The notes beneath the pieces are model-generated. The model made no database searches, was not told where the DNA came from, and was given only the letters and a program-made list of their open reading frames with translations. A DNA stretch of 64,000 bases from Candidatus Schneewindia gallinarum (GTDB lineage Bacteria; Bacillota; Clostridia; Oscillospirales; Ruminococcaceae). A program made the position numbers and the translations under genes. The stretch covers positions 1-64,000 of the forward strand of contig CAJFUF010000005.1 of NCBI GenBank assembly GCA_904420175.1, written 5' to 3'. Of this stretch, positions 1,691 through 13,231 are shown one piece after another; position 1 is the stretch's first letter, and the number at the start of each line of letters is the position of its first letter.

Positions 1691-1759
1691 TTTATTTTTT
1701 TGCCGTTGTAAACCGTTTTATATTATAATAATAGTAACACGAAAAATGGGGGATCGGTT

Positions 1760-3496
1760 GTGAGCTTCAAACAAAAGATGTTCCTTATTCTTTTTATTGT
1801 GCCATCCTTTGTTGCCATATTGGTTGGTTTTGGAATGCTGAGCAATGTCAAGGCCTCCCTGATGGAAAGCCTGTTTGACCAGCGGTATGCAACTTTGCAG
1901 CAAAAGTCGGCCTATGCTTCGCAAAGATTTGTGGAGGCCGACCAGTATCTTGAGGAGATTGCCAAAAATAACACAGTGCAGTCGGCCTTGCGGGTGCAAG
2001 ACCCCGCATTTTATGAGGAGCAGAAGGCGGTTATCCGCCCGCTTTTGGCACAAAAAAATTATATCGAGGCGTTCATTCTCGTGGATGGCTCTCCCTATTT
2101 CGCGACCTCTCAAACGGATCATTACAGTGCGGACAAGCTCTCCGGCTACGACTGGTATCAGCAGACGCTGGACGTGGATGGAGGCATTGTGACGGCAGGG
2201 CCCTTCTTTGGCGAAGATGAGGGGATTTTTTCCATCTATCTTGTTAAATCCTGCCTGATAAAAGACCTGTTGACCGGGGAACCCCTTGGCATTGCGGTCT
2301 TTGAGGTCAGTACGGCCGTGATGGCCGAATCGCTGACAAGGCGTACAGACAATTACTCTGAAGCGGTGATTGCCGACAGGGCCAATGTGGTGGTGGCCAG
2401 CGCAGTAAGGAAAGAAATCGGCAGGAAAATTGACGAAGCATTCGGGTTGGACAAAGAGCTTGACACCGAATACGGCTACAGCCTGGTACACCGCCAGGGG
2501 GAGGATTATCTGGCGCTGCGCACACAGCTGGATCAGACAGGATACGACCTGGTGGAATTTGTGCAGATAGAGACCCTGACCCGGGAAATTACGCAAATGG
2601 GTTATGTCATTACCCTGCTCATCTTGTTTCTGGTCGTCCTGATTTTTGTCATTGATTTTTTCTTCACCGCTCTGATTTCAAAGCCCATCATTAAAATGGA
2701 ACAGGCCATGCTGGAGGTTACCGGCGGGAATCTGGATGTCCGGGTTACGATAACAACAGATGATGAATTTGGCAGAATGAGTGAAATTTTTAACGAGATG
2801 GTGGAGAATACCCAAAAACTGATAACCTCTGTAAAGCAGAGTGAACGGAAGCGCAGGAAGGCGGAGACGGACTTCCTGTATCAGCAGATAAACCCCCATT
2901 TTACATATAACACCCTGACATCGGTAAAATTCCTTGTGGCCATGAATAAAAACAGTGAGGCGGAGGAGATGTTGTCCAATTTTATTAAATTTCTGCGCTA
3001 CTCCGCGCACAACACGGCCAAGCTGGTTAAGTTGCAGCAGGAACTGGCGCAGGTGGAAACGCTGTGCAATATTCTGAAAATCAGCTACCCCGGGCGCTTC
3101 TGCTTCGAAACGAAAGTTGACGAAGAAACGCTGGACAAAAATGTCCCTGCATTTTCCATCCAGCCTGTGGTGGAAAATGCCGTGTTTCGCAACCTTGCCG
3201 GCAACAAGGGCATATGCCGGATTCGGGTGATGGCTAAAATGGTCTCAGGCAAAATGGTGGTCCGTGTCACGGACAATGGGGTTGGAATCAGCCGGGAGAA
3301 GCTGAAGGAAATACAGAAGGGCCACATCCACTCCAAGGAGGGGATCGGCCTTCGGAACGTGGACAGCAGGCTGAAACTGTATTGTGGTGAGTCGTGCGGA
3401 TTGAAAGTAAGCAGTAAACTGGGCATTGGAACCAGGGTGGACTTTATTTTGAATTATAAAGGGGAGGATCGAATTGAGAATACTGGTAGTCGATGA
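1760..3496 (+). CDS. YesM/LytS-type sensor histidine kinase
   Basis: GTG start; N-terminal TM and sensor domain, HAMP region, phosphoacceptor QQINPHFTYNTL, HATPase_c DNGVGI. Confidence 0.9.
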   Translation: MSFKQKMFLILFIVPSFVAILVGFGMLSNVKASLMESLFDQRYATLQQKSAYASQRFVEADQYLEEIAKNNTVQSALRVQDPAFYEEQKAVIRPLLAQKNYIEAFILVDGSPYFATSQTDHYSADKLSGYDWYQQTLDVDGGIVTAGPFFGEDEGIFSIYLVKSCLIKDLLTGEPLGIAVFEVSTAVMAESLTRRTDNYSEAVIADRANVVVASAVRKEIGRKIDEAFGLDKELDTEYGYSLVHRQGEDYLALRTQLDQTGYDLVEFVQIETLTREITQMGYVITLLILFLVVLIFVIDFFFTALISKPIIKMEQAMLEVTGGNLDVRVTITTDDEFGRMSEIFNEMVENTQKLITSVKQSERKRRKAETDFLYQQINPHFTYNTLTSVKFLVAMNKNSEAEEMLSNFIKFLRYSAHNTAKLVKLQQELAQVETLCNILKISYPGRFCFETKVDEETLDKNVPAFSIQPVVENAVFRNLAGNKGICRIRVMAKMVSGKMVVRVTDNGVGISREKLKEIQKGHIHSKEGIGLRNVDSRLKLYCGESCGLKVSSKLGIGTRVDFILNYKGEDRIENTGSR

Positions 3497-4214
3497 TGAA
3501 ATGCCGATTAGAGAGTGGTTTCAGTACGCCATTGAAAAAATTGGCGACCCGGATATTGAGGTGCTGAGCGCATCCATGGGGAACGAGGCATATGATATCA
3601 TCGCATCGCAAAAGGTGGACGTGCTGTTCACAGATATCCGGATGCCCGGCCTTGACGGGATTGAGCTGATGCGGAAAATCAGGAATGAGCTTGGTGACAC
3701 GAACCTTGTTGTCATTTTGCTGACCAATCATGCGGAGTTCGACTATGCGCGTAAGGCCGTCACCCTCGGGGCGCACGCATACCTGCTGAAATCTGAGGTA
3801 ACGACAGAGATGATACGGGATGAAATCGAGGCGATCCGGAGGATCCTCCCGGATCCGGAACCCGCTGAAGAGGAAACAGATGAACTGGTTGACAGTGCCT
3901 ATATCAACCGGGCGGTGGAATACATCCGGAGGAATTATATGAACGCCCTGTCCCTGACGAAAGTGGCGGAGGAAGTACACCTTTCCCCGGAGTATCTAAG
4001 CAGGCTGTTTAAAAAGCAGAAGAATGAAAACTTTAACCATTATGTTACAAAGGTGCGGCTGAATGCCGCCAGGGAATTGATTGAGCACACAGACCTGCCG
4101 ATTGTGGAGATTGCCGAGCAGGTCGGCTTTGAAAACCAGAGCTATTTCTCCTCCCAGTACCGAAAGGAGTTTCAGTGCAGCCCTCTGTCTGACAGAAAGC
4201 TAAAAAAGCAATAA
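3474..4214 (+). CDS. YesN-type response regulator with AraC-family HTH
   Basis: TTG start with GGGGAGG; receiver VDDE...LFTDIRMPGLDG...K; C-terminal AraC HTH. Confidence 0.92.
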   Translation: MRILVVDDEMPIREWFQYAIEKIGDPDIEVLSASMGNEAYDIIASQKVDVLFTDIRMPGLDGIELMRKIRNELGDTNLVVILLTNHAEFDYARKAVTLGAHAYLLKSEVTTEMIRDEIEAIRRILPDPEPAEEETDELVDSAYINRAVEYIRRNYMNALSLTKVAEEVHLSPEYLSRLFKKQKNENFNHYVTKVRLNAARELIEHTDLPIVEIAEQVGFENQSYFSSQYRKEFQCSPLSDRKLKKQ

Positions 4215-4370
4215 TTCGACAAAAAAGTGAAAAAAAGTGATTGTTTCGCAAACCACAAGACAAAAAAGAAAAAATCGTCGTCAATTCTGCGCGTAGAAAG
4301 AATGCCTCGTCGCAAGCTATACTCAAAGCAAGCTAAACGCTGTGCGACATTTATGAAAAAGGAGGCAATT

Positions 4371-5459
4371 ATGAAAAAGTTAAATTGGAGACGTCTTGTG
4401 GCGCTTTTGACGGCAGTGGTACTGGCAGTGTCCCTTGCCGCCTGCGGCGGGGGAGACGGCGGAACGTCAGACAGTGGCAGTGGCACGGGCGATAATGATC
4501 TGAAAATTGCGGTTGTATTCAGCTCCAGCGGCCTTGGCGACAAAAACATGAACGACATGACGTATGAGGCCATGTTGCAGGCGGAGGAGGAGTTAGGGAT
4601 CTCCTTTGACTACACTGTTCCGCCCACGGATAACGACATTGAAATGGCTGCAAGAATGTATGTAGAAGACGGCAGCTATGACTGCATCTTTTTCATTGCG
4701 GCGGCCACAGGTGAAGCGTGTAAAAACCTCGCCGCGGAGTTCCCGGATCAGAAAATGATGTGGCTTGACGGCGATGTGGATTTGCCCAATGTCTGCTCCA
4801 TCTCCACCTTCTGGCCGGAACAGACCTTCCTTTGCGGTGTCATTGCCGGACTGGGAACCCTGAGCGATATGGAAAAGGCCAATGACGACAATGTGGTTGG
4901 ATGTATTTTAGCACAGGAGCAGCCTTTCCTTGTATCAGGCACCATCGGTTTTGAGGCAGGTGCAAGATACGTCAATCCTGACGTGGAGGTTTTACATGCC
5001 ACAATCGGCAGCTTTACCGATCCGACCACCGGTAAGGAAATCGCTGTCTCCATGTATGAAAAGGGCGCAGACTTTATCCAGCACATCGCTGGTGGTTCTG
5101 GCCTCGGCGTGTTCAATGCCGCAGTAGAGATGGATCGCTATGCTTTTGGCGTCGGTTCCAATCAGAATGATATTGAACCTGACTACATTGTGGCTACCTC
5201 TTTGAAGGACGTAAAGACCATTGTTTACAATCAGGTGAAAGCCCTGCTTGACGGAACGTGGGAACCCGGCCTAATGACCATCGGTATGAAAAACGGTGGT
5301 ACCGGCTACACCACAGAAGGCTCCAACGTAAAGATCCCGGATGAGATTATCGAGGCTGTCGAGGAAATTAAGCAGAAGGTCATCGACGGCGAGCTGGTGC
5401 TTCCCTCCACCAGAGAAGAGTTGGAGGAATTCCTGGCAAACAACAAGTATGAAAAATAA
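4371..5459 (+). CDS. BMP-family ABC transporter substrate-binding lipoprotein
   Basis: AAGGAGG then ATG at 4371 (ORF track over-extends the start); lipobox LAAC; BMP/PnrA-like core. Confidence 0.9.
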   Translation: MKKLNWRRLVALLTAVVLAVSLAACGGGDGGTSDSGSGTGDNDLKIAVVFSSSGLGDKNMNDMTYEAMLQAEEELGISFDYTVPPTDNDIEMAARMYVEDGSYDCIFFIAAATGEACKNLAAEFPDQKMMWLDGDVDLPNVCSISTFWPEQTFLCGVIAGLGTLSDMEKANDDNVVGCILAQEQPFLVSGTIGFEAGARYVNPDVEVLHATIGSFTDPTTGKEIAVSMYEKGADFIQHIAGGSGLGVFNAAVEMDRYAFGVGSNQNDIEPDYIVATSLKDVKTIVYNQVKALLDGTWEPGLMTIGMKNGGTGYTTEGSNVKIPDEIIEAVEEIKQKVIDGELVLPSTREELEEFLANNKYEK

Positions 5460-5473
5460 AACAGCGTGAAATC

Positions 5474-5516
5474 AAAAAAGAAGCCGGACAGTGCCTGCGC
5501 ACAGGCTTCTTTTTTG
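5474..5516 (+). terminator. intra-operon attenuator-like terminator
   Basis: AAAAAAGAAGCC-GGACAGTGCCTGCGCACA-GGCTTCTTTTTT between the SBP and ATPase genes. Confidence 0.75.
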
Positions 5517-5603
5517 AAGGCAAATTTAAGCGGGGCAGGGCCGGTCTTGTTAAGCCCGGTTACTTTATCGAACCGGCCGGCTGCTCCGAATAGGAGAAAT
5601 GCT

Positions 5604-7124
5604 ATGAACTCGGTAGAAATGAAGCATATCATAAAAAGATATCCTCTGGTTACCGCGGTGGACGATGTGGATTTTTGCGTGGAGTCGGGTGAAATCCACT
5701 GTCTGCTTGGAGAAAACGGGGCAGGGAAGACCACCTTGATGAAAATCCTGTACGGGATGACCATGCCGGACGGCGGAAGCATCCTCGTCAACGGACAGGA
5801 AACGGATTTCAGAAACCCTAACGACGCCATTCACAGCGGCCTGTCCATGGTGCACCAGCACTTCCAGCTGGTGCCGGTGCTTTCGGTTGCGGAGAATGTG
5901 GTGGTGGGACAGGAGGGGCAGGCCTTTTTCCACTTTAACAAGAAAAAAGCAGTGCAGGAGGTCCAGCAGCTGATTGAGCGATACGGCTTTCACATTGACG
6001 CCACCAAAAAGGTGGGCGAGCTCTCCGTGGGGGAGCAGCAGCGCGTGGAAATTATCAAGGCGCTGTACCGCAAGGCGAAAATCCTGATTTTGGATGAACC
6101 CACCGCCGTGTTAACCCCGCAGGAAGTGGAGGAGCTGTTCGTGGTCATGCGGGAAATGCGTTCCATGGGGATCACCATTATCATCATTACCCACAAGCTG
6201 AAGGAGGCCGTTGAAATCTCCGATCATGTGTCGGTTATGCGGGACGGGAAAATGATACAAAGCGGAATTCCTACCGCGCAGTGCACGGTGGAGTCGCTGG
6301 CCAACATGATGGTGGGCAGGCAGATGTCCCTTTCCTCCACAAGAAGGACAAAAAACAAAGGCGATGTGGTGGCAGAGCTGAAAAACCTGACTGTGGTGAA
6401 AAAAGGGAAGAAGGTTGTGGACAATGTGTCCTTCTCCATCCATGCCGGTGAAATTTTCGGTATTGCCGGCGTGGAAGGCAATGGCCAGACAGAGCTGATA
6501 GAGGCGCTGACAGGCCTTATCAGGCCGGAAAGCATGTCCCTTAAGGTGGATGGAAAGCAGCTGCACGGCGGGGCCAACGGCTTTCTGCGCGGCGGCGTGG
6601 GACATGTGCCGGAAAACAGGAACACCAGGGGGCTTATCTCCCAGATGACGGTGGCGGAGAATATGATTCTTGGATACCACCGTACCGAAAGGTTTTCCAA
6701 AAAAGGCATCTTAAACCTGGGCGAAATTCACGCGTTTGCAAAGCAGGGAATTGCGGATTACGCCATCAAGGTTCCCAATGAGAATGAGCTGGTAAGCTCG
6801 CTGTCGGGCGGCAACCAGCAGAAGGTTGTCATCAGCCGTGTGTTCAGCGAAAACCCGAGGTTTATTGTGGTTGCCCAGCCGACGCGCGGCGTGGATGTGG
6901 GCGCCATGGAGTACATACACGACGTGCTGCTGAATCTGCGGGATGCCGGTGCGGCCATCCTTCTGATAAGTGCGGACCTGGACGAGGTCATCCGTCTTTC
7001 GGACACCCTGTCGGTTATTTATGAAGGGAAGCTTGTAAGTACGACGCCTGCCGATACCCTGACAGAGCTTCAAATCGGCCAGCTGATGCTTACAGGAAGC
7101 AATGAGGAGGTGGAAGAAAGATGA
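5604..7124 (+). CDS. nucleoside-type ABC transporter ATP-binding protein (two ABC domains)
   Basis: start ATG 5604 with TAGGAG; GENGAGKTT, LSVGEQQR, LSGGNQQK; RbsA/NupO-like. Confidence 0.93.
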   Translation: MNSVEMKHIIKRYPLVTAVDDVDFCVESGEIHCLLGENGAGKTTLMKILYGMTMPDGGSILVNGQETDFRNPNDAIHSGLSMVHQHFQLVPVLSVAENVVVGQEGQAFFHFNKKKAVQEVQQLIERYGFHIDATKKVGELSVGEQQRVEIIKALYRKAKILILDEPTAVLTPQEVEELFVVMREMRSMGITIIIITHKLKEAVEISDHVSVMRDGKMIQSGIPTAQCTVESLANMMVGRQMSLSSTRRTKNKGDVVAELKNLTVVKKGKKVVDNVSFSIHAGEIFGIAGVEGNGQTELIEALTGLIRPESMSLKVDGKQLHGGANGFLRGGVGHVPENRNTRGLISQMTVAENMILGYHRTERFSKKGILNLGEIHAFAKQGIADYAIKVPNENELVSSLSGGNQQKVVISRVFSENPRFIVVAQPTRGVDVGAMEYIHDVLLNLRDAGAAILLISADLDEVIRLSDTLSVIYEGKLVSTTPADTLTELQIGQLMLTGSNEEVEER

Positions 7125-8182
7125 ACAGACTAAAACAGCTTAAGCCAAATGACATCCTGTCCTCCACAGCGGTCAAATCGGTTATTTCGCTGCTGATTGC
7201 ACTGCTGATCGGGGGCGTGATTCTCGGTGTGTCCGGCTACAACCCCCTGTCCTGCTACGGGGCAATTGTGAAGGGCTCTCTGCTGTCGCCCAGCGCACTG
7301 ATTAACACACTGGTGCAGATGACGCCGCTGATGTTTACGGGGCTTGCCTTTGCGTTTTCCTCCAAATCCGGCCTTATCAACCTGGGTATGGAGGGGCAGA
7401 TGTTTTTAGGCGGGCTGGCCGCCGCCGTGGTGGGCGGGCTGGATTTGGGCCTTCCGATGATCATCCATCTGCCGCTGACAATTCTCAGCGGGATGCTGGC
7501 GGGCGGCCTGTACGGCCTGCTGGCGGGCCTGCTGAAAGCGAAATTCGGCGCCTCTGAGTTTATCGTGACACTGATGCTGAACTATGTGGCCACTTTCCTG
7601 TGCAGCTATTTGGCAAATGGACCGCTTCGGGAGGAAGGTTCATTAATGGCGCAGACAAAAACAGTTTTACCCTCTGCCCAGCTGCCGGAACTGGTCGGCG
7701 GCAAGAACCTGACCATTGCTCTGATTCTGGGAATTTTGCTGTGCGTCGGCATCCATCTGTTTTTAAACAAAATGGCGCTGGGGTACGAAATCCGCGCCGT
7801 GGGACGCAACCAGATTGCATCTGAAACGGCGGGTATCAACATCAATAAGGTGACGCTTACCACCATGTTCGTCAGCGGTGCGGTTGCGGGGCTTGCCGGC
7901 GTCAGCATGTCGCTGAGTGGAAATAACCGGTTTGTGGACGGAGCCACTGCCGGCTATGGCTTTAACGGCGTGGCCATTGCATCGCTGGCCTCCCACAACC
8001 CCCTGGCTGTGATCTTGTCGTCCTTCGTGTTTGGGGCGTTGCGCACAGGCTCTCTGGCGTTAAGCATGACCCAGCGTATCCAGCCGGAATTTGCCGATAT
8101 GATTCAGGCGCTGGTCATTTTGTTCGTAGCCATGCCTGCGCTGCTGACCGGCCTGAAAATCAGAAAAAGGAGGGCGAAGTAA
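7121..8182 (+). CDS. ABC transporter permease (nucleoside/BMP type)
   Basis: ATGA overlap with the ATPase gene; polytopic; BPD_transp_2-like. Confidence 0.9.
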   Translation: MNRLKQLKPNDILSSTAVKSVISLLIALLIGGVILGVSGYNPLSCYGAIVKGSLLSPSALINTLVQMTPLMFTGLAFAFSSKSGLINLGMEGQMFLGGLAAAVVGGLDLGLPMIIHLPLTILSGMLAGGLYGLLAGLLKAKFGASEFIVTLMLNYVATFLCSYLANGPLREEGSLMAQTKTVLPSAQLPELVGGKNLTIALILGILLCVGIHLFLNKMALGYEIRAVGRNQIASETAGININKVTLTTMFVSGAVAGLAGVSMSLSGNNRFVDGATAGYGFNGVAIASLASHNPLAVILSSFVFGALRTGSLALSMTQRIQPEFADMIQALVILFVAMPALLTGLKIRKRRAK

Positions 8183-9094
8183 ATGGGAATCGAGTCCTTG
8201 CTTTTAACGACGCTTAGAATGTCCATTCCACTGGTCATTGCGGCCATGGGCGGAATCTTTGCAACCCGGTCCGGCATGATGGCCATGGGACTGGAGAGCA
8301 TGATGCTGTTCGGCGCTTTCGGCGCAGTCTGGTGCTCTTACCTGACGGGAAATGTGTTCCTCGGCTTTCTCACAGGAGTCCTGTTCGGGATGGTGTTCGG
8401 CCTGACCTATGCCGTGCTGACCATCCGCTTCCAGGTCAATCAGGTCATCGGCGGTATCGCCCTTAACCTGTTCACGGTGGCGTGTACAACGGTGCTTATG
8501 CAGTTTGTGTGGGGAAATGCGGGCAACTCTCCCGCGGTAAACAGCCTTGAAGGCTCTGTTAACATCGGTATCCTGGCTGAGATTCCTGTCATTGGCCCTG
8601 TTTTAAGCGGCATGTCCATCAACTTCTACATTGCGATTTTGCTGATTGCGGCAACCACGTTTGTTATGTTCCACACCTGCTTTGGCCTGCGGCTTCGGAT
8701 GATCGGCGAAAACCCCACTGCGGCAAGCACTCTCGGCATTAAGGTGCGGGGCTACAAATACCTCGCTATGCTGATCTGCGGCGCCCTTGCGGGCTTCGCC
8801 GGGGCCTATCTGTCCATTGATCAGCTGAACATGTTCTCCAAGGACATGATTGCGGGAAAAGGCTATATCGTGGTGGTTATGCTGGCACTGGGCAAGTACA
8901 ATCCTGTGGGTGCGGCGCTGGCGGCACTGCTGTTCGGCTTCTCGGACGCGCTGCAGATTAACCTGCAGCAGATGTTCAGCGTTCCTGCCCAGCTGGTGCA
9001 GATGCTGCCGTACATTGTCACCATTCTTGTCATTACCTTTGCCGTCCGGCATGTGAAGGGCCCGGCGGGCACTGGAAAGCTTCCGGAGGAATAA
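8183..9094 (+). CDS. ABC transporter permease (nucleoside/BMP type)
   Basis: follows the first permease directly; BPD_transp_2-like. Confidence 0.9.
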   Translation: MGIESLLLTTLRMSIPLVIAAMGGIFATRSGMMAMGLESMMLFGAFGAVWCSYLTGNVFLGFLTGVLFGMVFGLTYAVLTIRFQVNQVIGGIALNLFTVACTTVLMQFVWGNAGNSPAVNSLEGSVNIGILAEIPVIGPVLSGMSINFYIAILLIAATTFVMFHTCFGLRLRMIGENPTAASTLGIKVRGYKYLAMLICGALAGFAGAYLSIDQLNMFSKDMIAGKGYIVVVMLALGKYNPVGAALAALLFGFSDALQINLQQMFSVPAQLVQMLPYIVTILVITFAVRHVKGPAGTGKLPEE

Positions 9095-9148
9095 GCCGGC
9101 CGGAAGAAAACAGCACGAAAAAGGAACATACAGAAAGGATGAAACAGA

Positions 9149-10657
9149 ATGAAAGCGATTATGGTCATGTTCGACTCCTTAAACCGGCACCTGCTGGAGC
9201 CCTATGGGTGCGACTGGACGAAAACGCCGAACTTTGCGCGGCTGGCGGAACACACCGTAACCTTTGACAACTTTTATGCGGGCTCCCTGCCATGCATGCC
9301 CGCCCGCAGGGAACTGCACACCGGCCGCTATAACTTCCTGCACCGGGCATGGGGCCCCATTGAGGGTTACGACGACTCCATGCCGGAGATTCTGAAAAGC
9401 AATGGAATTTACACGCACCTTGTCACGGATCACTGGCACTACTGGGAGGAAGGCGGAGCCAACTACCAGACGAAGTACAACAGCTTCGAGTATGCCCGCG
9501 GGCAGGAGGGCGACCCGTGGAAGGGGCACTTAAAATGGGATGTGCCGGAACATATTGACGGGCGGCAGGACGCCTGCGGCAAACAGGAGTATATTAACCG
9601 CTACTACATGCGTGAGGAGAAAAATCAGGCCATAGCGGTAACATTCCAAAACGGTCTGGACTTCATTGAGACGAACCATGCAGAGGACAACTGGTTCCTG
9701 CAGATAGAGGCCTTTGACCCGCATGAGCCGTTCTTCTCCCCGCAAAAGTATAAGGACTTATATCCGCACGAGTACCACGGCATCATGTTTGACTGGCCCG
9801 CTTACCACCCGGTACGGGAAAGCGAGGAGGCGGTTCAGCACTGCCGGTATGAGTATGCCGCACTGCTGTCCATGTGCGACGCCTACCTTGGTAAGGTGCT
9901 GGACATGATGGATCAATACGGCCTGTGGGAAGACACCATGCTGATTGTCAACACAGACCATGGTTTCCTGCTGGGGGAGCACAACTGGTGGGGAAAGATT
10001 CAGATGCTGTACTACAACGAAATCGCCCATACCCCGTTCTTTTTGTGGGATCCCAGGCTGAAGCTAAAAAACGTGCGGAGCGACTGCCTCGCGCAGACCA
10101 TTGACATCGCCCCCACTGTTCTCGATTTCTTTGGACAGGCAATCCCGAAGGACATGCTGGGCCGGCCGCTGCGCCAGTGCCTTGAAAGCGGAACGAATGC
10201 CCATGACTATGTCCTGTTCGGCCAGCACGGCATGCAGGTTTATATCACGGACGGAAGATATGTGTATGTTCGCTCGCCGCTGCCGGATAAGGAGGACGTG
10301 CTGTATAACTATATGTCGGTACCCAACAGCTACCCCAACGCCATGCCGGTGGAAGTGCTGCGCACAGGCGAGTGGCACCCCGGTTTTAGCTTCACGAAGG
10401 GCGTCCCGCTGATGAAATACCACGGCGGCAGCTGGATTCCTTCCATGCAGCAGAATGGAAAGCTGCCGGAAAGCCTACATGCAGCGGGCAACCTGCTGTT
10501 TGACCTTGAGACGGATCCGAAGCAGCTGAACCCCATCGACGACCCGCAGGTGGAGGAGCGGATGATCCGCGCCATGGTAAAACTGATGCTTGAAAACGAC
10601 AGCCCGGCGGAGCAGTTTGAACGCCTGGGACTGGAGAGCTATCTGCCGACACCGTAA
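9149..10657 (+). CDS. Cys-type sulfatase, no signal peptide
   Basis: sulfatase signature CMPARRELHTGR; DHGFLLGEH; N-terminus MKAIMVMFDSLNR lacks a signal sequence. Confidence 0.92.
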   Translation: MKAIMVMFDSLNRHLLEPYGCDWTKTPNFARLAEHTVTFDNFYAGSLPCMPARRELHTGRYNFLHRAWGPIEGYDDSMPEILKSNGIYTHLVTDHWHYWEEGGANYQTKYNSFEYARGQEGDPWKGHLKWDVPEHIDGRQDACGKQEYINRYYMREEKNQAIAVTFQNGLDFIETNHAEDNWFLQIEAFDPHEPFFSPQKYKDLYPHEYHGIMFDWPAYHPVRESEEAVQHCRYEYAALLSMCDAYLGKVLDMMDQYGLWEDTMLIVNTDHGFLLGEHNWWGKIQMLYYNEIAHTPFFLWDPRLKLKNVRSDCLAQTIDIAPTVLDFFGQAIPKDMLGRPLRQCLESGTNAHDYVLFGQHGMQVYITDGRYVYVRSPLPDKEDVLYNYMSVPNSYPNAMPVEVLRTGEWHPGFSFTKGVPLMKYHGGSWIPSMQQNGKLPESLHAAGNLLFDLETDPKQLNPIDDPQVEERMIRAMVKLMLENDSPAEQFERLGLESYLPTP

Positions 10658-10672
10658 CAGGAGGGAAAGGCC

Positions 10673-11800
10673 ATGCCGCCGCTGAGCATTTTAATCAAAC
10701 CCGTGTCCGACAGCTGCAATATGCGCTGTAAATACTGCTTTTACTGTGATGAGGCTAGCAAGCGGTCAGTCCACTCCTACGGCACCATGCAGGCGGATAC
10801 GCTGGAAAAGCTGGTGATGAAGGCGCTGTCAGCCGCACAGGGGCAATGCACCTTTGCCTTTCAGGGCGGGGAGCCAACCCTTGCAGGGCTGCCCTTTTAT
10901 CAGGAGTTTGTCCGGCTTGTACAAAAGCACAATGTAAAAAAGCTGGACGTCCATTTTGCCATACAGACCAACGGGACGCTGATTGACAGGGAGTGGGCCG
11001 GGTTTCTTGCGCAGAACGGTTTTTTAACCGGCTTGTCCTTAGACGGAACCAAGGAGGTAAACGACCGGTTCCGCGTGGACGCGCAGGGCGGCGGTACCTA
11101 TACGAAGGTGCTGCATGCTGCACAGCTTTTCGACGCAGCCGGCGCCCAGTACAACATCCTGACTACCGTCACCTCTGCCGTGGCGGAAAATGTTGAACGG
11201 ATTTACCGCTTTTTTAAAAAGAACGGATTTCAGTGGCAGCAGTACATCGCCTGCCTTGATCCAATTGGAGAGCGGCGCGGCGGGCATGACTACTCTGTTA
11301 CACCGGAGCAGTACGGCGTTTTCCTAAAGCGCCTGTTCGATTTGTGGTATCTGGACTGGAAGCATGGAACCCCCATCTCCATTCGGTATTTCGATAATCT
11401 GGTGTTTCTGCTTATGGGCCAGCCTGCGGAGGCCTGCGGCATGATGGGCCACTGCACCTGCCAATATGTGGTGGAGGCGGACGGCGGCGTCTATCCCTGT
11501 GATTTCTATGTGCTGGACGGCTATAGGCTGGGGGACATTGAAACGCAGGACTTCCCGGACTTTGACAAAAAACGCCGGGAGCTTCGATTTATCGAGAAAT
11601 CGCTGGTTCCCCATGAGGACTGCCGGGCATGCCCCTTCGGCTACCTGTGCCGAGGCGGGTGCCGCCGGGATCGCGACGGGTTTGACGGCGGCCCGCTTCA
11701 AAAAAATTATCTCTGCCCTGCGTACCGCGTCTTTTTCCCTTACGCTCTACCGAGGCTTCAGGAACTTGCGCAGGATGTCATGAAACGCTCCCGACCTTAA
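10673..11800 (+). CDS. anaerobic sulfatase maturase (radical SAM/SPASM)
   Basis: CNMRCKYCFY radical SAM motif; C-terminal Cys clusters CGMMGHC.C...CRACPFGYLCRGGCRRD...CPAY; adjacent to the sulfatase. Confidence 0.92.
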   Translation: MPPLSILIKPVSDSCNMRCKYCFYCDEASKRSVHSYGTMQADTLEKLVMKALSAAQGQCTFAFQGGEPTLAGLPFYQEFVRLVQKHNVKKLDVHFAIQTNGTLIDREWAGFLAQNGFLTGLSLDGTKEVNDRFRVDAQGGGTYTKVLHAAQLFDAAGAQYNILTTVTSAVAENVERIYRFFKKNGFQWQQYIACLDPIGERRGGHDYSVTPEQYGVFLKRLFDLWYLDWKHGTPISIRYFDNLVFLLMGQPAEACGMMGHCTCQYVVEADGGVYPCDFYVLDGYRLGDIETQDFPDFDKKRRELRFIEKSLVPHEDCRACPFGYLCRGGCRRDRDGFDGGPLQKNYLCPAYRVFFPYALPRLQELAQDVMKRSRP

Positions 11801-11810
11801 AACAGGGACG

Positions 11811-11844
11811 AAAGACGGCCGGATTTTTATCCGGCCGTCTTTTT
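11811..11844 (+). terminator. intrinsic terminator
   Basis: AAAGACGGCCGGATTTTTATCCGGCCGTCTTTTT. Confidence 0.9.
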
Positions 11845-12079
11845 CTGCCTCCAATCCACCCGGCCCCCGGCAGAGGACGCGGCAGAACAAAACCGCCGCC
11901 GCGGCACTTAAAACGGGGGAAAGTGCAGACAGGCAAAATCATATCATCGACTTGCGAGGGCATTTGTGGTAAGATAAACTGGGATTTTAAAAAGATCGCG
12001 CTGGACCGGCGGTAAGGCGGCGCGGCATATAGAATGGAAAAACCAAAGCCTTAAAAAGACGGGATGGGAGGAAAAGAAA

Positions 12080-13231
12080 ATGATGGGAACAGTTGCGCTG
12101 GTGCCGTGCGCCGGCTACAACCGGCAGGAGGTGACGGAGGCTGTCCGCACCGGTGTGGAACTGCTTGGAGGGATAGGACGGTTTGTCCGCCCGGAGGAGC
12201 ACATTCTTTTAAAGCCGAATCTGCTGCGTAAAGCGGAGCCGGACAGGGCTGTTTCCACCCATCCGGAGGTGTTTCGCGCCGTTGCCGCCCTGCTGCGGGA
12301 GGTGGGATATTCCAACCTGACATACGGGGATTCGCCTGGAACGGGCAGCATGGCCAAGACAGCAGAGGCCTGTGGAATGGCCGCCCCGGCGCAGGAGTTT
12401 AACATACCGCAGGCGGACTTTTCCACCTGCGTGGAAACCGCATTTCCGCAGGGCCGTGTCTCACAGCGGTTTTTCCTTGCAAAAGGGGTTGTGGATAACC
12501 CGGCTGTCATCAACATCTGTAAAATGAAAACCCATGCGCTGGAGCGGATCACCGGGGCCGTAAAAAACCTGTACGGCTGCGTACAGGGCTATAATAAAAG
12601 TGCAGGGCATGTGGCCTACCCCTCTGCGGAGCGGTTTGCCGCCATGCTGTGTGACCTCCACCGGCTGATACGCCCGCGGCTGCACATTCTGGACGGTATC
12701 ACCGCCATGGAGGGAAACGGCCCTGCTTCCGGCACGCCGGTGCACATGGGGGTGCTGCTGTTTTCCGACGATCCAGTGGCCCTGGACAGCGTTTTTTGCC
12801 GCCTTGTTTACCTGAATCCTGAACTGGTGCCCACCAATGTGCAGGGCATGAAAGCGGGTGTCGGTACCTATGAGCAGGTGCGCGTGCTTACTCCGCAGGG
12901 CGAACTGGACGTGGATGAAGCGGTGGAAAGGCATGGCCACAGCGAATTTGATGTGTACCGCGGTAAGGAGGAACGGCCGTTTTTAAAAAACCTGCTGCGC
13001 TTTGCCAGATCCAAGCCGGCAATAGATGGGACGCGCTGCGTCGGCTGCGGCGTGTGCGTGGACGCCTGCCCCGTGCAGGGAAAGGCCGTGCATCAACCGC
13101 GCAGGGGTGTGAAGCCCACATACGACTACAAGGCCTGTATTCGTTGTTTCTGCTGTCAGGAGATGTGCCCGGAACAGGCCATCTTTGTGAAAAAACCGCT
13201 GATGGCAAGATTGGCGGACAGAAAGTGGTAG
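12080..13231 (+). CDS. DUF362 protein with C-terminal 2x[4Fe-4S] ferredoxin domain
   Basis: DUF362-like core; CVGCGVCVDACP and CIRCFCCQEMCP motifs. Confidence 0.88.
   Translation: MMGTVALVPCAGYNRQEVTEAVRTGVELLGGIGRFVRPEEHILLKPNLLRKAEPDRAVSTHPEVFRAVAALLREVGYSNLTYGDSPGTGSMAKTAEACGMAAPAQEFNIPQADFSTCVETAFPQGRVSQRFFLAKGVVDNPAVINICKMKTHALERITGAVKNLYGCVQGYNKSAGHVAYPSAERFAAMLCDLHRLIRPRLHILDGITAMEGNGPASGTPVHMGVLLFSDDPVALDSVFCRLVYLNPELVPTNVQGMKAGVGTYEQVRVLTPQGELDVDEAVERHGHSEFDVYRGKEERPFLKNLLRFARSKPAIDGTRCVGCGVCVDACPVQGKAVHQPRRGVKPTYDYKACIRCFCCQEMCPEQAIFVKKPLMARLADRKW

Follow-up and report, generated by a model that had tools for sequence, protein, structure and literature searches.

Which compound could a bacterium take up through a BMP-type ATP-binding cassette (ABC) importer and then desulfate in its cytoplasm? 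The question is raised by a gene unit of Candidatus Schneewindia gallinarum, in which such an importer is followed by genes for a formylglycine-dependent sulfatase and its maturase. The unit lies in a stretch of 64,000 nucleotides (positions 1 to 64,000 of contig CAJFUF010000005.1, hereafter the window), which is part of contig C5 of a draft genome of 1.77 Mb in 39 contigs with a completeness of 86.65%. We propose, with a probability of about 0.58, that it constitutes an import-then-desulfate system with a nucleoside or nucleoside-like sulfate ester as its substrate class. The evidence comes from the sulfatase active site, the pocket of the substrate-binding protein (SBP) and the nucleoside genes found beside the same gene pair in other genomes. 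The parts all belong to known families; their coupling to a nucleoside-type importer and to nucleoside catabolism was not found in the literature searched.

Organization of the unit

The unit spans positions 1760-11847 with all genes on the plus strand, comprising a two-component system (TCS), a BMP-family ABC importer, the sulfatase and the maturase, and it is closed by a strong terminator. Two tRNA-Ala genes, one per strand, precede its promoter. Domain models recovered every part named by a sequence-only reading made before database searches, a YesMN-like TCS, a BMP importer, a sulfatase with a CMPAR motif and a maturase, on that strand and in the order it gave. The features are as follows.

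1700..1729, plus strand: sigma-A-like promoter TTGCCG-18-TATAAT, 5' of the TCS and just past a tRNA-Ala gene (consensus scan 10/12, sequence read)
1760..3496, plus strand: YesM-like sensor histidine kinase with dCache (below cut-off), HAMP, His_kinase and HATPase_c domains (Pfam; a homologue lies 5' of the homologous importer at loci L135 and L136)
3474..4214, plus strand: YesN-like response regulator with Response_reg and AraC-type HTH_18 domains, TTG start, overlapping the kinase gene (Pfam)
4371..5459, plus strand: BMP/PnrA-family lipoprotein SBP, lipobox LAAC, GVGSNQ in place of GVDSDQ (PF02608, PDB relatives, fold search, pocket alignment)
about 5472..5517, plus strand: intergenic hairpin with U-tract between the SBP and ATPase genes, attenuator or terminator (sequence, fold energy)
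5604..7124, plus strand: ABC ATPase with two nucleotide-binding domains, likely start ATG 5604 (PF00005 in two stretches; AGGAG ahead of ATG 5604)
7121..8182, plus strand: permease A, BPD_transp_2 (PF02653, 151 bits)
8183..9094, plus strand: permease B, BPD_transp_2 (PF02653, 134 bits)
9149..10657, plus strand: predicted cytoplasmic S1-type formylglycine hydrolase (sulfatase) with CMPAR, no signal peptide (PF00884, conserved active site, fold search)
10673..11800, plus strand: anaerobic sulfatase-maturating enzyme, radical SAM/SPASM (NF010321, TIGR03942, PDB 4k36 at E 3e-126)
11813..11847, plus strand: intrinsic terminator at the end of the unit (sequence; -29.6 kcal/mol, z -6.6)

The TCS is of the YesMN type, with a membrane kinase of dCache-HAMP-His_kinase architecture (dCache at 43.6 bits against a cut-off of 45) and a regulator that combines a receiver with an AraC-type helix-turn-helix domain. 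The open reading frame (ORF) of the ATPase opens at GTG 5466, but ATG 5604 is the likely start. The 54-nt gap between importer and sulfatase (9095-9148) had been described as free of a terminator and of an independent promoter, and both statements stand: the scan of the gap found no promoter-like or terminator-like site, and no stable fold was predicted there (-3.3 kcal/mol, z -0.16). The sequence-only reading had missed the strong hairpin between the SBP and ATPase genes (14 bp, U-tract, -22.3 kcal/mol, z -3.99). A single transcript running from the SBP gene into the sulfatase gene thus cannot be taken for granted, although a hairpin in this position often attenuates transcription only in part. 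As stable hairpins were also detected in the corresponding gap at L136 (z -4.1) and L021 (z -3.8), and a weaker one at L135 (z -2.0), the element may tune the amount of binding protein. A gene for a DUF362 protein with a ferredoxin domain (window 12080-13231) lies 3' of the maturase and, being beyond the terminator, was not counted in the unit.

Sulfatase and maturase

The sulfatase matched PF00884 with 121.2 bits (Pfam cut-off 25). Its N-terminus reads MKAIMVMFDSLNRH (MKAIMVMFDSL) and an in-frame TGA stands three codons 5' of the ATG, which excludes a longer form with a signal peptide; the earlier observation that the enzyme lacks a signal sequence was thus upheld and an exported glycan sulfatase ruled out. 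The maturation motif C-M-P-A-R (C-x-P-x-R) comprises residues 49-53, and its Cys is kept in 98 of 100 aligned family rows (one Val, one gap). One relative (L018:1-1326) carries VMPAR, with Val for Cys, in a gene inside which its contig begins, and an assembly error is possible. With residue roles taken from PMC5870055 and PMC5488252, the metal ligands, the flanking HisA and the general-acid His/Lys pair are all present as D9 (98/100 rows, two gaps) and D270, H271, H97, H192 and K283 (100/100 rows each). The maturase scored above both of its equivalog models (NF010321, 465.4 against 441; TIGR03942, 370.3 against 349) and is assigned as an anaerobic sulfatase-maturating enzyme.

One expected feature is absent: LysA, which contacts the sulfate oxygens, is replaced by His95 in the ungapped alignment or by Asp94 in the hidden Markov model alignment. 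The family is therefore a divergent one in which phosphoester activity is possible, and this opens an alternative in which the formylglycine enzyme is a phosphoesterase and a nucleoside phosphoester, such as the 3'-nucleotides or 2',3'-cyclic nucleotides released by RNA digestion, is imported and loses its phosphate inside the cell. Phosphodiesterase or phosphonate monoester hydrolase activity is found in some members of the formylglycine hydrolases (PMC5488252), and enzymes of this kind rank high among the matches by sequence (NCBIfam PehA; 4upk). The window enzyme shares with the phosphonate monoester hydrolases PehA, RlPMH and SpPMH the formylglycine nucleophile, the Asp-His metal ligands and the general-acid His-Lys pair. 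However, a His flanking the nucleophile marks sulfatases, whereas phosphonate monoester hydrolases have Asp or Thr there and Tyr at LysA (PMC5488252). In the ungapped alignment the window enzyme has His at both positions, the flanking residue is His in 100/100 aligned rows, and the PehA score is far below its cut-off (131.9 against 900). In the predicted structure (mean predicted local distance difference test score 88) the nearest folds are S1 sulfatases, with phosphonate hydrolases close behind. We consider the phosphoester alternative unlikely, and the enzyme, judged from its conserved residues and predicted fold, is probably a divergent S1-type sulfatase, predicted to be cytoplasmic, that departs from the type at LysA. 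Identity as a choline sulfatase was rejected (TIGR03417, 103.6 against a cut-off of 433), and scores for the aryl sulfatase equivalogs were likewise below cut-off.

Binding protein and its pocket

The SBP matched PF02608 with 154.6 bits (cut-off 24.1) and has a LAAC lipobox, which places it among the BMP/PnrA-family lipoproteins. Its closest PDB relatives by sequence are Lbp, BmpA and PnrA, and by sequence and predicted fold together it is nearest to nucleoside-bound proteins, with guanosine-bound Lbp first and with BmpD (adenosine-bound) and PnrA also among them (ligands according to PMC9601137 and PMC7093131). The structure prediction that had been suggested earlier, for a comparison with PnrA and BmpA, placed the fold nearest to guanosine- and adenosine-bound relatives, and alignment showed an altered residue at BmpA Asp225. 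The riboflavin-binding RfuA of the same family also scored well, so that the ligand does not follow from the fold by itself. A vitamin B6 transporter of the BMP type was rejected, as all four importer genes scored far below the cut-offs of NF047927-NF047930 (60/400, 431/670, 152/400 and 159/465).

In BmpA, the base is stacked by Phe27 and Phe176, and three residues (Asp98, Asp225 and Lys242) are positioned for contact with the ribose (PMC13325309). Pocket residues were compared by alignment. All sulfatase-linked SBPs (6/6, the window protein included) have Gly at the position of Asp225 and Asn at Asp+2, while Asp is retained at both in 6/7 of the BMP paralogues of the window's genome. The window SBP keeps Asp98 and Lys242, and with Gly for Asp225 its set of ribose contacts is incomplete. 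The aromatic sandwich of Phe27 and Phe176 is Met/Phe in the window protein, Phe/Phe in four linked SBPs and Phe/Trp at L026. From the alignment we read the pocket change as altered ribose recognition that would be compatible with an ester on the ribose; changed residues on the ribose side would also suit a nucleoside phosphoester. The idea that the change reflects an anionic ligand was weakened, since Lys242 is also lost in five of the six linked SBPs. The clade of the window SBP holds nine rows (98/98), namely the six sulfatase-linked proteins, two that are linked to DUF3604 proteins, and the long-branch L159 with a different motif.

Conservation of the gene pair

A scan of 84,980 species genomes for the sulfatase returned the nearest 80 loci; genes around the relatives were found with a codon-model caller, and those without a family assignment were named by eye. 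The sulfatase lies directly 3' of a BMP importer in five other genomes, those of Ruthenibacterium (L021), two Clostridium isolates (L022 and L023), Galloscillospira (L025) and a member of the Tissierellales (L026), with gaps of 15-77 nt. The SBP gene at L025, close to the beginning of its contig, escaped the tblastn overlap filter and was identified by ORF calling; its product aligns end to end with the others. In a sulfatase tree of 100 rows, the window enzyme and the five linked relatives fall into one clade of eight rows with support 88, within which seven rows form an inner group with support 98. The clade also includes L020, which has a ribose-type importer, and L029, whose contig begins inside the gene. 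Among the 349 genomes of the window's family only three others have a sulfatase match at E <= 1e-185, and the flanks that were read, those of two of the three, contain no BMP importer. Hence the pairing is rare and scattered. The gene-neighbourhood check suggested by the sequence-only reading showed recurrence in five other genomes, though the pairing is rare in the window's own family.

The rarity of the pairing and the strong hairpin after the SBP gene could be taken to mean that the neighbourhood arose by chance, or that the genes are transcribed separately and the importer and the sulfatase have unrelated jobs. Yet the order SBP-ATPase-permease-permease-sulfatase recurs with short gaps across the linked genomes and the importer-sulfatase junction has no promoter, and we regard this explanation as extremely improbable.

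Nucleoside genes beside the pair

Purine nucleoside phosphorylase (PNP) is encoded in the fetched flank of 4/5 BMP-linked loci compared with 1/75 of the others (Fisher p 1.6e-5, ignoring the relatedness of the loci). The only unlinked locus with PNP is L020, a member of the same sulfatase clade, and at the fifth linked locus (L025) the contig ends just past the sulfatase. At L022 and L023 the genes stand in one row on one strand: a DeoR regulator, a class II aldolase, PNP, an alcohol dehydrogenase, MtnA, the importer, the sulfatase and a deaminase that is nearest to the 5'-deoxyadenosine/methylthioadenosine (MTA) types. The L026 locus encodes adenosylhomocysteinase, PNP and the maturase. Models for PNP, MtnA and adenosylhomocysteinase were over their cut-offs, and the deaminases were below their equivalog cut-offs. 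The L022 and L023 clusters plausibly represent a plan for dismantling a nucleoside once the ester has been removed.

These clusters also bear on two further alternatives. The first supposes a sulfated sugar or glycoside as substrate, with a BMP importer of changed specificity and nearby nucleoside genes that are incidental. Transporters of the MalEFG-type, SsuABC-like or GPH/MFS kinds neighbour several relatives of the sulfatase, as do LacI regulators and glycosidase-like genes; the importer at L020, in the same clade, is of the ribose type; and one stacking Phe is missing from the window SBP. Still, PNP accompanies the BMP-linked pair across different families, the branches around the SBP clade are binding proteins from nucleoside operons, and an MtaD-type deaminase and adenosylhomocysteinase have no obvious role in sugar use; a sulfated sugar seems to us an improbable substrate. 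The second is that an ester-bearing 5'-modified adenosine (5'-deoxyadenosine, MTA or S-adenosylhomocysteine-like) is imported and that the cluster salvages such by-products. The deaminase, PNP, MtnA, aldolase and alcohol dehydrogenase of L022 and L023 and the adenosylhomocysteinase of L026 would fit, but ribose phosphate without any modification is also broken down by a similar logic of isomerase, aldolase and reductase (see the pathway in archaea, PMC9700705), and no MtnA-family match was found in the window's genome at its 86.65% completeness. We consider this version very unlikely.

Returning to a nucleoside-like sulfate ester as substrate, the window's genome encodes eight BMP-type SBPs, six of them close paralogues, and nine phosphorylase-family matches, two of which are adjoined by an amidohydrolase-family gene on contig C25. 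The suggestion of such a substrate, made by the sequence-only reading, is independently supported by PNP beside four of five loci, by the sequence and fold likeness of the SBP and by these genome counts. Several observations weigh against it. Natural nucleoside sulfates are not known to be common in the gut; those described in the papers found come from venoms and insects only. Nucleoside genes are absent from the window's own unit, and most sulfatase relatives (50-60% identity) adjoin other transporters, including MalEFG-like, SsuABC-like and GPH/MFS ones where read. A BMP-PNP-MtnA-aldolase cluster occurs without a sulfatase at L160, which suggests that the sulfatase was added to a module for nucleosides. 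In the proteins themselves, Met takes the place of the first stacking Phe in the window SBP, Lys242 is Tyr or Phe in the other five linked SBPs, and the sulfatase has lost LysA.

Further BMP genes of this genome lie on contigs C8, C25, C29, C34 and C35. One of the C8 copies has its importer downstream; around the C34 and C35 copies the fetched stretch holds none, and CRP/FNR-like regulators (by eye) lie nearby. On contig C29 (L152:776-8567), the importer whose SBP is closest to that of the window adjoins three inosine-uridine nucleoside hydrolase-like genes. A second sulfatase with its own maturase is present on contig C4 (L149:11499-15309), beside an ADP-ribosylglycohydrolase-like gene and near PfkB-kinase-like and HAD-like genes (all three read by eye), and is possibly nucleoside-related.

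Replacement of the sulfatase by a DUF3604 protein

At L135 and L136, both from genomes of the window's taxonomic family, the importer is 60-69% identical to that of the window and shares its G-V-G-S-N-Q motif, and a homologous TCS precedes it. Where the window has sulfatase and maturase, these loci encode a DUF3604 protein of 745 residues (L135:2440-4677, L136:2226-4463). The protein has an N-terminal beta-propeller-like region and C-terminal PHP-like motifs. At L037, a member of the window enzyme's sulfatase family has its end overlapped by a DUF3604 homologue. A PDB search with the DUF3604 sequence gave no match, and the literature searched held nothing relevant on DUF3604 as a sulfatase. 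The swap of hydrolases beside a similar importer supports the view that the imported substrate is hydrolysed.

Most PHP enzymes, however, are phosphoesterases, and for this reason the phosphoester alternative is retained as an unlikely one. Against it stand a second sulfatase in the cluster at 19/80 loci of relatives and the L022 cluster, in which none of the genes is obviously for a nucleotidase; this would be expected of a hydrolase whose product is already a nucleoside. More tentatively than for the window's unit, we raise the possibility of a dedicated bacterial route for sulfated nucleosides, in which a G-x-G-x-N-Q subfamily of BMP proteins for nucleoside esters would be combined with the sulfatase or with a DUF3604 protein doing the same job. 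DUF3604 would then be a second, formylglycine-independent desulfating enzyme.

Proposed mechanism and related systems

In the mechanism that we propose for a sulfated nucleoside, the sensor kinase would detect an extracellular ligand and the AraC-type regulator would turn the unit on, as their domains suggest. The BMP lipoprotein would bind the ester through its nucleobase cleft, from which acidic residues on the ribose side have been removed, and the ABC importer would admit it intact. In the cytoplasm, the maturase would form formylglycine from Cys49 of the sulfatase in an oxygen-independent reaction, and the matured enzyme would remove the sulfate, as their families and conserved residues predict. 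The freed nucleoside would presumably enter ordinary catabolism. For this, the cluster in relatives provides genes for deamination and phosphorolysis and, in the two Clostridium isolates, for pentose phosphate isomerisation and aldol cleavage as well; the window's genome encodes phosphorylases and deaminase-family enzymes outside the unit.

Other compounds are known to be imported and then desulfated in the cytoplasm, such as in the use of choline-O-sulfate, where an ester is also taken up intact and met by a cytoplasmic formylglycine sulfatase. In contrast to the present unit, that system has an importer of another family; the window sulfatase is far below the choline-sulfatase cut-off, and its relatives have a nucleoside context. 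Sulfate-ester uptake systems of the SsuABC/AtsRBC type likewise adjoin sulfatases. Similar gene sets (sequences read by eye) lie near the sulfatase relatives L012, L014 and L125 and thus share with the window an ABC importer adjoining such an enzyme, but they have another transporter and binding-protein family and no nucleoside genes were seen among them. The PnrA, BmpD and Lbp nucleoside importers resemble the window's in the PF02608 lipoprotein, the double ATPase, the two BPD_transp_2 permeases and the nearest predicted fold, and differ in that the window has Gly for the ribose-contacting Asp, Asn at Asp+2, Met for the first Phe, and the coupling to a sulfatase. The phosphorylase, isomerase, class II aldolase and reductase steps of L022 and L023 resemble archaeal nucleoside degradation via ribulose-1-phosphate aldolase (PMC9700705), which in contrast uses ribose 1-phosphate kinase, ribose 1,5-bisphosphate isomerase and ribulose 1,5-bisphosphate phosphatase and has no sulfatase.

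No pathway for sulfated nucleosides and no pairing of a sulfatase with a nucleoside-type importer was found in the literature searched, which covered few subscription papers, and searches on BMP proteins with sulfatases, on ascorbate sulfate with gut bacteria and on nucleoside-sulfatase clusters returned nothing relevant. If the nucleoside-sulfate reading is right, gut and environmental Bacillota would consume an overlooked pool of sulfated nucleosides, the genes that reveal this use would now be named, and the DUF3604 hydrolases would gain a first functional hint. Two named Clostridium strains, chh4-2 and MCC353, are offered as hosts in which this could be tested.

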